The translations under genes and the position numbers were made by a program. The notes under the pieces were generated by a model. That model ran no database searches, was not told the origin of the DNA, and saw only the letters and a list, made by a program, of their open reading frames with translations. Shown in pieces: positions 55,673-59,192 of a stretch of DNA of 64,000 nucleotides (its first letter is position 1; every line of letters starts with the position of its first letter). This DNA comes from Isosphaera pallida ATCC 43644 (GTDB lineage Bacteria; Planctomycetota; Planctomycetia; Isosphaerales; Isosphaeraceae): the NCBI RefSeq assembly GCF_000186345.1, contig NC_014962.1:4306450-4370449 (forward strand), written 5' to 3'.

Positions 55673-55777
55673 GAACCGGGGGGGGCCCAGGCAATGGGGG
55701 TTTGTGAACCTGGTCAGGGCGGGAACGCAGCAGCCATAAGCAACACCTTCATGTGCCTGGGAGTTCCTCCCCGGTTC
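55673..55777 (+). ncRNA. ffs: Signal recognition particle RNA (bacterial small type)
   Basis: Not in a protein-coding frame. The SRP domain IV signature appears as tgaacctggtcagggcggga followed by acgcagcagccataag (55703-55740; compare the usual GGUCAG...GGAA...AGCAGCC). The flanks fold into a long helix: gaaccgggg (55673-55681) with ccccggttc (55769-55777), and cccaggca (55686-55693) with tgcctggg (55754-55761), both perfect. This is the scaffold bound by Ffh for co-translational membrane targeting. It lies directly upstream of dnaX, as in many bacteria. Exact ends are uncertain by about 10-20 bases. Confidence 0.9.
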
Positions 55778-55910
55778 CTGCCTTGGCCCTCATTGGGTCT
55801 TCGCCGCAACCTCCCGCGAACCCAGTCCAAAAGCGTTTCTGGCAACCCGACCCAAGCATTCCACGGTTTTGGTCCCCCCTCGTTCTTCTCTGGACGCGAA
55901 GGAGCGCGAC

Positions 55911-57899
55911 GTGGCCTCTGCTCGTGCGACGTTCGCCTCGGACGGCCCAACCATTCCCTCTTCCTTGGACTATCAGGTTGTCGCCCGTCGCTACCGTCCT
56001 CAATCCTTCGCCGACGTGGTTGGCCAGGACCACGTCGTCCGCGCCTTGTCCAACGCCATCATCCACCATCGAGTTACTCACGCCTATCTGTTTTGCGGCA
56101 CCCGCGGGGTTGGCAAAACCTCAATGGCCCGCATTTTCGCCAAGTGCCTCAACTGCGAACGCGGACCAACCGTCGAACCCTGCCAGGTCTGCGATATTTG
56201 TCGCGCCATTTCGGTTGGCCAAGATGTCGATGTGATTGAGATCGACGGCGCAAGCAACAATGGAGTCGATGCCGTCCGCGAACTACGGCAGAACGCCGGC
56301 CTGCGACCCAGCCGCGCACGCTACAAAATCTACTACATTGATGAAGTTCACATGCTCACCACCGGGGCGTTCAACGCTCTGTTGAAGACGCTTGAGGAAC
56401 CACCTGAACACGTCAAATTCATTTTCGCTACCACCGAAGCCCATAAAATCCCAATCACCGTCCTATCGCGCTGTCAACGTTACGACTTCGCCTCGATCAC
56501 GCCAGATACAATCCAACAGAGCCTGGCGGCGATCTGTCAACGCGAGGGGATCGCGGCTGAGTCCGAGGCGCTTCGGGTGGTGGCGCGTCGGGCTTCCGGG
56601 TCAATGCGAGACGCCCAGTCGCTGCTGGAGCAACTCCTGTCCTCGGGCCAAAGTCCGCTGACCGTCGAGATGGTTCATCAGCTGCTGGGCACGCCCGACG
56701 ACGAGTTGACCCTGGAGATTCTCGACGCGCTGGCCGGTCAACGCGCTGGTGAGGCGCTGTGCCTGTTCGACCAAGCCGCCGGGCGCGGCGTGCAGGCGTT
56801 GGATCTGATCAACAGCTTGATGGACGCGCTCCGTGATGTCATGACGTTGGCCGCCGGCGCGCCGACGCGCCTACTTTCGTCCTCGCCCCGACACCACGAC
56901 CGTCTGAAGCGAATCGCCACGACGTGGGGATTGGATACGACGCTCGCCGCGCTTCAAGTGGCCTCCGAAGCCCGCGGCAAGCTGCGGGGGAGTCTCCACG
57001 GTCGTCTGATCGCCGAGATGACGTTGGTCCGCATCGCCCGCCTGGAACGTCTGGTGGCCCTGTCGGACTTGATCGCTCACCTGAGCTTAGGCGAACCGCT
57101 CGACCCCACCCGCCACTTCGACTTCAACCCCACGCAAGCCGACGCCGAGTTGCCCCCCAAACTCGTCGCTCCCACCCCCTTGCCCACGATCACGCCTCCC
57201 CCCAGCACGGGTCACGACCACAACGCCCCCACCGAAACGAGCAACAACGAAAAAAAAAAGTTCCCGGCGGTAGTCGCTCCAACTTGCGACGAGCACACGG
57301 ACGCGCCGACAGCTCCTGACGTCAAGCTCACCCCCCCCACCGGGCAACTCCAGCGCGTTCCCTCCGCCGGCGACACCGACACCGACACCGAGAACGACCA
57401 CGACCACGACCCCGACGGCGAATCCCCCTCCCCGTCCCCTTCTTGGGACGAACGACGGCTTCAGGACGCCTGGCGCGCGGCGCTTGAGGAACTCAGCCCT
57501 CGAGAACGTCGCCCGTTTTTGGCCGCCCGGGTCCATGCAACTTCAGGGCCGGACCACGTCCATCTGATCTTGCCCGCATCCTATAATCCCGGTGTCGGTG
57601 ATGGGGAATCCGACCGGATCGTGGACCGTCTGGCTACTCGAATGGCGACGCACTTGGGTCGCCCCGTTCGACTGGTTCCGATGGTTGACAGCAAACCGGA
57701 GCCGAATCGCCCGTCTCAACCCGACCGCTCGCGGCCAACCAATCCGCGAACATCGGGGACGGCCCTCCAACGCGACTCTTCCACCGAAGTTCTCCGTGAC
57801 GACCCGTTCGTCCGTCGTCTGATCGAAGTGTTCGAGGCTCGACAGGTGTTGGCGGAACCCAACGATGCCGAATCCTCGTCCGCTTCAAGCGAGCGTTGA
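55911..57899 (+). CDS. dnaX: DNA polymerase III subunit gamma/tau
   Basis: The clamp-loader ATPase of the replisome, 662 residues. It starts at GTG 55911, with aaggag six bases upstream; the frame is open from 55869. Motifs: YRPQSFADVVGQDHV, Walker A CGTRGVGKTSMARI, a zinc site with C82, C91, C94 and C97, Walker B YYIDEVHML, then ALLKTLEEPPEHV and the sensor-1 Arg in LSRCQRYDF. Domain III follows to about residue 400. The region after about 400 is Pro/Asp/Thr-rich and holds an A10G run at codons 447-450 that may give a shorter gamma form. The last part resembles a tau-type polymerase-binding tail. It heads the dnaX-ybaB-recR-rpoN run. Confidence 0.97.
   Translation: MASARATFASDGPTIPSSLDYQVVARRYRPQSFADVVGQDHVVRALSNAIIHHRVTHAYLFCGTRGVGKTSMARIFAKCLNCERGPTVEPCQVCDICRAISVGQDVDVIEIDGASNNGVDAVRELRQNAGLRPSRARYKIYYIDEVHMLTTGAFNALLKTLEEPPEHVKFIFATTEAHKIPITVLSRCQRYDFASITPDTIQQSLAAICQREGIAAESEALRVVARRASGSMRDAQSLLEQLLSSGQSPLTVEMVHQLLGTPDDELTLEILDALAGQRAGEALCLFDQAAGRGVQALDLINSLMDALRDVMTLAAGAPTRLLSSSPRHHDRLKRIATTWGLDTTLAALQVASEARGKLRGSLHGRLIAEMTLVRIARLERLVALSDLIAHLSLGEPLDPTRHFDFNPTQADAELPPKLVAPTPLPTITPPPSTGHDHNAPTETSNNEKKKFPAVVAPTCDEHTDAPTAPDVKLTPPTGQLQRVPSAGDTDTDTENDHDHDPDGESPSPSPSWDERRLQDAWRAALEELSPRERRPFLAARVHATSGPDHVHLILPASYNPGVGDGESDRIVDRLATRMATHLGRPVRLVPMVDSKPEPNRPSQPDRSRPTNPRTSGTALQRDSSTEVLRDDPFVRRLIEVFEARQVLAEPNDAESSSASSER
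57250..57260 (+). promoter_or_regulatory. A10G slippage/frameshift site inside dnaX
   Basis: In frame the codons read gaa aaa aaa aag, so the tract contains A AAA AAG, the same heptamer used for -1 frameshifting in Escherichia coli dnaX. A long A run can also cause RNA-polymerase slippage, as in Thermus thermophilus dnaX. Entering the -1 frame adds 19 residues (starting VPGGSRSNLRR) to a stop at 57317-57319, giving about 469 residues. The other frame stops at 57271-57273. A weak stem gtcgc/gcgac follows at about 57273-57290; no clear upstream SD-like enhancer is seen. Confidence 0.65.
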
Positions 57900-57994
57900 G
57901 GTTCAAGGCCGGCCCGACGATGGACCGACCAACCAACAGGCGCTGCCACGACGCGACCCGACACGGGTTGAGCATCGAATCCAAGGATCGAACG

Positions 57995-58345
57995 ATGTTC
58001 CCCAATCTTGGCATGTTGGGCAATCTCTTGGGCGATCCCGCCAAACTGCGGGAACAGATGGAACGGGTCCAGGCCGAACTCGCGGCGATTCGGGCCGAAG
58101 GCACTGCGGGCGGCGGCATGGTCACCGCGGTCTTTAACGGCAAGCTGGACCTGGTACGGCTGCGCATTGACCCCCAAGCCTTGAGCAACGCCGCCAACGA
58201 TCCCGAACTGTTGGAGGATCTGATCACCGCTGCCATCCACCAGGGCATGGCACGCGCTCGCGAGGAGGTCGCCCGGACGATCTCATCCCTGGCCGGGGGA
58301 ATGCCGATCCCAGGCTTAAACCAATTGTTCACCGGCGGCTTCTGA
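57995..58345 (+). CDS. ybaB: YbaB/EbfC-family nucleoid-associated protein
   Basis: A 116-residue DNA-binding protein that forms tweezer-like dimers. The pattern LREQMERVQAELAAIRAEGT, GGGMVTAVFNGKLDLVRLRI, DPELLEDLITAAIHQGMARA and the terminal helix ARTISSLAGGM fit YbaB/EbfC. The ATG at 57995 has aagga eight bases upstream; the frame is open to 57896. It sits 95 bases after dnaX and upstream of recR, the conserved order. It probably affects nucleoid structure or recombination; the exact role in this lineage is not known. Confidence 0.93.
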   Translation: MFPNLGMLGNLLGDPAKLREQMERVQAELAAIRAEGTAGGGMVTAVFNGKLDLVRLRIDPQALSNAANDPELLEDLITAAIHQGMARAREEVARTISSLAGGMPIPGLNQLFTGGF

Positions 58346-58580
58346 TCCCGATCGAACAATCCAGCCCGGAACTTGAGAATCGGTCGTCTTCCCCCCGGCC
58401 CCGCGCGGGGGCAAGGACCGAACCAGGGGAGGGCTGACGGGATCGGTCCTGAATCCATCGGGTCTGCAAACGGGAAAGGGGTTCGCCGCAATGGCATCTC
58501 AACCCGGTTGGGTTTGACTCGGTGTGATGGTGTCGCCCTTTCCCGCCCGCTTCGGGCTGATTTGGACGCGGAGACCGCGT

Positions 58581-59192
58581 ATGGCCGGCTACGTCGCCAC
58601 CGTGGAGAAACTGATCGCGGAATTGGGACGGCTTCCCGGCGTCGGCGCGAAAACCGCCGAACGCCTGGCCCATCACATCCTCAAAGTTCCTGCGGAAGAA
58701 GCCCTGGCTCTGGCCGAAGCGATTCGTCAGGCCAAACAGCGGGTCGGCTACTGCCCCATTTGCCACAACCTGGTCGAGAGCGATCATGAACTCTGCGCCA
58801 TTTGCCGCGACCCCCGCCGCGACCACGGCATAATCTGCGTGGTCGAGCAATGCCGCGACCTGATGGCATTGGAAAGCGCGGGAACCTATCAGGGCGTGTA
58901 TCATGTCCTGCATGGTCGGCTCGCCCCCTTGCAAGGCATCAGCGCCGAACATCTCACGCTGGAGTCGCTGGAACGTCGAATGCGTTCGGGCACGGTGCGG
59001 GAAGTGATTCTGGCGACCAACCCCAACCTCGAAGGGGATGGCACCGCGCTTTGGATTTCACAACACCTCGGGGGTTTAGGGGTGCCCATCACCAAACTCG
59101 CCCGCGGCCTGGCCTCCGGGTCCACCCTGGAATTCGCCAACAAGGAGATGCTGGTGGACGCCCTCAACGGCCGTCAAGCCTTCCATCCCTGA
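58581..59192 (+). CDS. recR: Recombination protein RecR
   Basis: A 203-residue recombination mediator that works with RecO (and RecF) to load RecA at gaps. It has the helix-hairpin-helix LIAELGRLPGVGAKTAERLA (about 11-30), a four-Cys zinc finger (CPICHNLV...CAICRD, about 58-75), and a Toprim domain beginning IICVVEQCRDLMALE, then YHVLHGRLAPLQGI and ILATNPNLEGDGTALWI, ending in the Walker-like C-terminal GLASGSTLEFANKEML. Length is standard (about 200). ATG 58581 matches the family start (MAGYVATVEKLI); an ATG at 58524 is upstream. It follows ybaB by 235 bases. Confidence 0.96.
   Translation: MAGYVATVEKLIAELGRLPGVGAKTAERLAHHILKVPAEEALALAEAIRQAKQRVGYCPICHNLVESDHELCAICRDPRRDHGIICVVEQCRDLMALESAGTYQGVYHVLHGRLAPLQGISAEHLTLESLERRMRSGTVREVILATNPNLEGDGTALWISQHLGGLGVPITKLARGLASGSTLEFANKEMLVDALNGRQAFHP

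Follow-up and report, generated by a model that had tools for sequence, protein, structure and literature searches.

The DNA-replication gene dnaX of Isosphaera pallida ATCC 43644 lies within a window of 64,000 nucleotides (contig NC_014962.1, positions 4,306,450 to 4,370,449 of the forward strand) and contains an uninterrupted run of ten adenines, which raises the question of whether this one gene yields both full-length tau and a shortened gamma protein and, if so, whether it is RNA polymerase or the ribosome that slips. The need for gamma, and how frequently slippage is the means of making it, have so far been argued from few species. The gene is identified by its match to TIGR02397 (E 2.5e-133; 444.7 bits against a cut-off of 250), and its product matches PF12169 at 43.5 bits (cut-off 24.4). 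The features of the locus, in window coordinates, are:

55678–55775, plus strand: small SRP RNA gene (RF00169), close upstream of dnaX
55869, plus strand: in-frame TTG, the longest alternative dnaX start
55911–57899, plus strand: dnaX coding sequence (tau, 662 aa), with a GTG start and AAGGAG at 55899–55904
56661–57077, plus strand: domain III of the dnaX product (PF12169, residues 251–389), retained in tau and gamma
57250–57259, plus strand: predicted A10 slippage tract, read with 57249 and 57260 as codons GAA AAA AAA AAG
57254–57260, plus strand: in-frame A_AAA_AAG heptamer, which is present but is not the conserved element
57261–57896, plus strand: tau-only tail, which needs the kept reading frame (A10, A13)
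57271–57273, plus strand: TAG in the frame used when the run is one A shorter or two A's longer; predicted gamma of 453–454 aa with C terminus EKK(K)SSRR
57317–57319, plus strand: TGA in the frame used when the run is one A longer or when the ribosome shifts by −1; predicted gamma of 469 aa with C terminus KKKVPGGSRSNLRRAHGRADSS

Within 55911–59192, dnaX is followed by open reading frames that resemble ybaB (57896–58345) and recR (58524–59192). Positions 57240–57260 read agcaacaacg aaaaaaaaaa g, that is, ten A (57250–57259) followed by G at 57260, with A_AAA_AAG in the same phase as in E. coli, and stops in the other frames are encountered 3 codons (+1) and 19 codons (−1) past the tract. Varying the length of the run in silico gives products of 662 aa (A10), 453 aa (A9), 469 aa (A11), 454 aa (A12), and 663 aa (A13). 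Domain III ends at residue 389, upstream of the tract at residues 447–450, and thus gamma would retain the ATPase domain, the lid, and domain III. The preliminary description of this DNA had reported the A10G run read as GAA AAA AAA AAG with the heptamer in phase, the two off-frame stops, and a short form that slippage would give, with the ATPase and domain III kept and the tail lost, all of which we confirm from the sequence; its estimate of about 455–469 residues for the short product becomes 453–469 here, a difference within the choice of start codon.

The A10 tract is very probably a slip site that yields two proteins, and we consider it likely that it works by RNA polymerase slippage of the type known from Thermus, with a tau of 662 aa and a gamma of 453–469 aa. 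RNA polymerase would slip on the tract during transcription of dnaX; mRNAs with 10 (or 13) A's would be translated into tau, and those with 9, 11, or 12 A's would reach a close off-frame stop and give gamma, with the ATPase domains and domain III retained and the tau tail gone. We infer from the sequence that slippage occurs in vivo, and likewise its ratio and the entry of gamma into the clamp loader.

To place the tract in the context of other planctomycete dnaX genes, we drew loci from the family (45 genomes), from a collection of named genomes, and from an even draw across the phylum (294 genomes), and scored 217 distinct Planctomycetota loci for the longest A-run in the linker. This run is A9 in 60 loci, A10 in 64, and A11 in a single locus, the other 92 having 8 or fewer A's, such that lengths cluster at 9–10 with a background tail at 8 or fewer; more than 40% of the loci lack a tract, and runs of 12 or more are absent from all 217 linkers. 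Runs of A7–A8 in the AT-rich genes of families f37 and f63 were rejected as background, since their positions are scattered and their stops mostly distant. The tract occupies a nearly constant place just past domain III (deciles 387–429 in query numbering). Its reading phase may be 0, 1, or 2 (e.g., GAA AAA AAA AAG; GTA AAA AAA AAA TTA; GTT AAA AAA AAA CTG), so that the encoded residues differ and the run stays; the base that follows is C in 47, G in 41, and T in 37 of the 125 tract loci, and the E. coli heptamer is in frame in only 28 of them. A constant place combined with a free phase and a free next base argues that it is the nucleotide run that is kept, not a peptide or the heptamer. The nearest relatives of I. 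pallida in this set belong to other genera (58–70% identity in the conserved part), and counts from related species are not independent. Many loci come from metagenome assemblies, in which homopolymer errors are possible; consistency across finished genomes makes such errors an unlikely explanation.

The off-frame stops were analyzed in 120 intact tract genes in which the zero frame encodes tau. Here a stop is reached after a median of 3 codons in the −1 frame and 3.5 codons in the +1 frame, as compared with 24 and 23 codons when counting starts from control boundaries within these genes. In 76% of the tract genes, each of the two other frames closes within 10 codons, versus 9% at control positions within them (5000 draws, highest 18%) and 6.5% in tract-less genes (Fisher p of about 4e-26 with relatedness ignored). 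Conservation of the +1 stops equals that of the −1 stops. In I. pallida itself, the −1 stop at 19 codons is farther away than the usual 1–5 codons, which counts against slippage by the polymerase.

The best-surviving alternative, which we nonetheless regard as unlikely, is programmed −1 ribosomal frameshifting of the E. coli type on A_AAA_AAG, which would give a gamma of 469 aa. A −1 ribosomal site consists of an in-phase heptamer, a stop in the −1 frame only, and usually stimulators; a +1 stop is not required, and an A-run of only 7 suffices. Recoding the I. pallida tract as CAG CAA AAA AAG, for example, would reduce the run to 7 with the heptamer still present as AAAAAAAG. The phase of the heptamer is correct, the −1 frame ends at 57317–57319, and genuine ribosomal-type dnaX sites do occur in the phylum (family f9, below); moreover, any A9 contains A_AAA_AAA, so the sequence is compatible with ribosomal shifting, and the in-phase A_AAA_AAG of I. 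pallida means that such shifting could contribute. Against this stand the small share of tract loci with the heptamer in frame, the equal conservation of the +1 stop, and a maintained length of 9–10 where 7 or 8 would suffice. The I. pallida site also has no Shine–Dalgarno stimulator upstream of the tract, no stable downstream hairpin (z of +0.30 for 57261–57330), and no match to an Rfam frameshift element, and the single-frame tract genes as a group show Shine–Dalgarno motifs in 5% and ordinary downstream folding (mean z of −0.22).

The lysine tRNAs bear on the same point. The I. pallida genome encodes both tRNA-Lys(CUU) and tRNA-Lys(UUU). A group I intron of 325 nt interrupts the gene for the second of these within the anticodon, separating its first base from its second:

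contig C2, about 2333152–2333406, minus strand: split tRNA-Lys(UUU) (L309), whose intron-less form is a normal tRNA-Lys(TTT) by ARAGORN

The intron-split gene rules out the absence of tRNA-Lys(UUU) from this organism, and the presence of two lysine tRNAs speaks against the ribosomal alternative, as two such tRNAs are argued to disfavor shifting at AAG and may explain slippage in Thermus (review PMC5009743). One more tRNA gene of this genome (L308, C2 4790483–4790827, minus strand) is likewise interrupted by a group I intron; its exons point to a CAU anticodon, perhaps that of Ile2, and the joined form gave no clear ARAGORN call.

A neutral origin, in which a lysine-rich linker happens to be written in AAA codons with no programmed second product, is strongly disfavored and in our judgment quite improbable, even though I. 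pallida viewed in isolation accommodates it. A pattern search of its genome (5,529,304 bp, two contigs) returned five A/T runs of at least 9, of which only the dnaX tract reaches at least 10; since a Markov model of such a genome predicts ∼9 runs of exactly 9 and ∼2 of 10 or more, rarity by itself proves little. Open frames checked at the other four A9/T9 sites revealed nothing comparable. Given the protein and the codon usage of dnaX itself, a run of A9 or more arises with p = 0.18, such that the I. pallida sequence is suggestive and the weight falls on its relatives. Here the tract is found in 125 of 217 loci where 15.7 would be expected from synonymous resampling and 4.6 from codon shuffling, and these comparative counts are what give the tract its significance beyond chance. 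Retention of the run in three phases and the close stops in both frames further oppose a neutral linker.

In four Isosphaeraceae loci (L016, L017, L020, and L021), the run has drifted away with KKK or a close variant kept, written AAG AAA AAG, AAA AAG AAG, AAG AAG AAG, or AAA ACA AGG; KKK without a run is what a neutral linker would allow. When these four sequences were read by eye, the other frames showed no stop nearby, and a relative (L008) that retains A9 has stops at 4 and 0 codons, so that tract and stops disappear together, which a neutral linker does not predict. The tract state changes 29 times on a FastTree phylogeny of the conserved part, and Fitch parsimony places the tract in the ancestor shared by 170 loci and in the Isosphaeraceae ancestor, with three loss clades within that family. 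In phylogenetically independent pairs, stops follow the tract by 8.4 to 1.7 (median sign-test p of 0.065), the same direction at weak significance. The preliminary description had looked to Isosphaeraceae for conservation of the tract, which holds for the ancestor of the family but not for three of its clades; as tract and stops are gone together in the clade examined, this outcome speaks more for a functional link than for a refutation. Its proposal of a gamma/tau branch made by slippage is well supported by the phylum-wide conservation of the run, whereas its stress on the E. coli-type A_AAA_AAG is not borne out, given the frequency of that heptamer in frame (28/125) and the lack of a Shine–Dalgarno motif or hairpin in I. 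pallida or its relatives. Proteolysis of tau to gamma, with the tract as a relic, has a precedent in Caulobacter (review PMC5009743) and could account for the tract-less lineages, but leaves the maintained run length and the off-frame stops unexplained and is the least credible reading of all.

A literature search, with subscription journals mostly outside it, found no paper on planctomycete dnaX recoding, and prior mention is possible. The I. pallida site is real and very probably functional, and as predicted from its sequence it joins the Thermus-type dnaX slippage class. The dnaX gene of Thermus thermophilus likewise has a single tau open reading frame with an A-run at the gamma/tau branch, close stops in both other frames, and two lysine tRNAs; its run is A9, both frames are closed, and gamma and tau are made at about 1:1 (PMC1088944, PMC5009743). 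I. pallida differs in its A10, in belonging to another phylum, in that its slippage is predicted, and in the location of the tract some two thirds along the gene (447/662) versus seven eighths in Thermus. E. coli dnaX shares with I. pallida A_AAA_AAG in the same phase and a full frame that encodes tau with the shift giving gamma; unlike E. coli, I. pallida lacks the Shine–Dalgarno motif and the hairpin, and among planctomycetes the heptamer is not conserved and both off-frame stops are. For the I. pallida gene, the E. coli analogy is incidental. The GeneTack study describes two-ORF dnaX genes from Chlorobi and others with poly-A (7–10 A) at the gamma/tau branch, as in planctomycetes, and a reversed polarity shared with families f52 and f9; these genes differ from the single-ORF form of I. 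pallida and from f9, which also has G_GGA_AAA with hairpins (PMC3711429). A Chlorobium dnaX case with stimulators is mentioned as well (PMC5009743). Among Desulfuromonadia and deltaproteobacterial loci, six (L103, L104, L107, L112, L113, and L117) carry A9–A12 with ∼37–40 codons of dnaX left before its 3′ end, and their −1 frame closes 0–2 codons past the run; this position differs from the planctomycete one, and L109 is cut by a contig end.

Short open frames noticed in f9 and f52 led us to take 30 further loci, which are therefore not a random sample. In f52, A10 is found in seven of nine loci (L320, L327, L331, L332, L335, L337, and L339) directly in front of a zero-frame stop or close to one, so that the zero frame ends a few codons on; the tau tail lies in the −1 frame, and stimulators are absent; L044, L079, and L286 are further A10 loci of reversed polarity, also without stimulators. 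In f9, A_AAA_AAA or G_GGA_AAA is found in 11 of 14 loci (L310–L314, L316, L318, L321, L328, L330, and L334), usually one codon ahead of the stop that closes the zero frame, with tau in the −1 frame, and L329 of f61, like those of f9, is a gene in two overlapping frames in which tau would be made by a −1 shift. Among these 12 A7/GGGAAAA loci (f9 and L329), folding z is below −2 in 58% and a Shine–Dalgarno-like motif is present in 67%, versus 3% and 5%, respectively, in single-frame genes with A9 or longer (Fisher p of about 1e-6 for folding and 5e-7 for Shine–Dalgarno, relatedness ignored). Their +1 frame is unconstrained, and most f9-type hairpins start 6–7 nt past the heptamer with stems that differ in sequence. 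By these features, the f9-type sites are of ribosomal design and form an internal control for the phylum. In three f15 loci (L287, L293, and L299), the zero frame ends near codon 391 without an A-run, the −1 frame stays open through a tail resembling that of tau, and strong self-complementarity is apparent in the DNA right after the stop.

Families f9, f52, and f61 group together in a single clade (support 100) that contains all states. We favor, somewhat less firmly than polymerase slippage in I. pallida, the reading that one orthologous dnaX branch point switched both its slipping machine and its polarity across Planctomycetota: the machine would be RNA polymerase on A9–A10 or the ribosome on A_AAA_AAA/G_GGA_AAA with Shine–Dalgarno motif and hairpin, and the slip would either give gamma or be required for tau. 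A tract that is kept phylum-wide in any phase, is lost together with its stops, and is replaced by a ribosomal site in one family argues that it is the two-product output that is selected, not the mechanism. Automatic annotation of f9- and f52-like families would report gamma alone or a broken gene, because tau needs a shift there. If this reading is true, the clade of f9, f52, and f61 would be a natural experiment on one recoding mechanism replacing another, and the change of mechanism and polarity across the phylum is the part more worth following than the I. pallida site itself.
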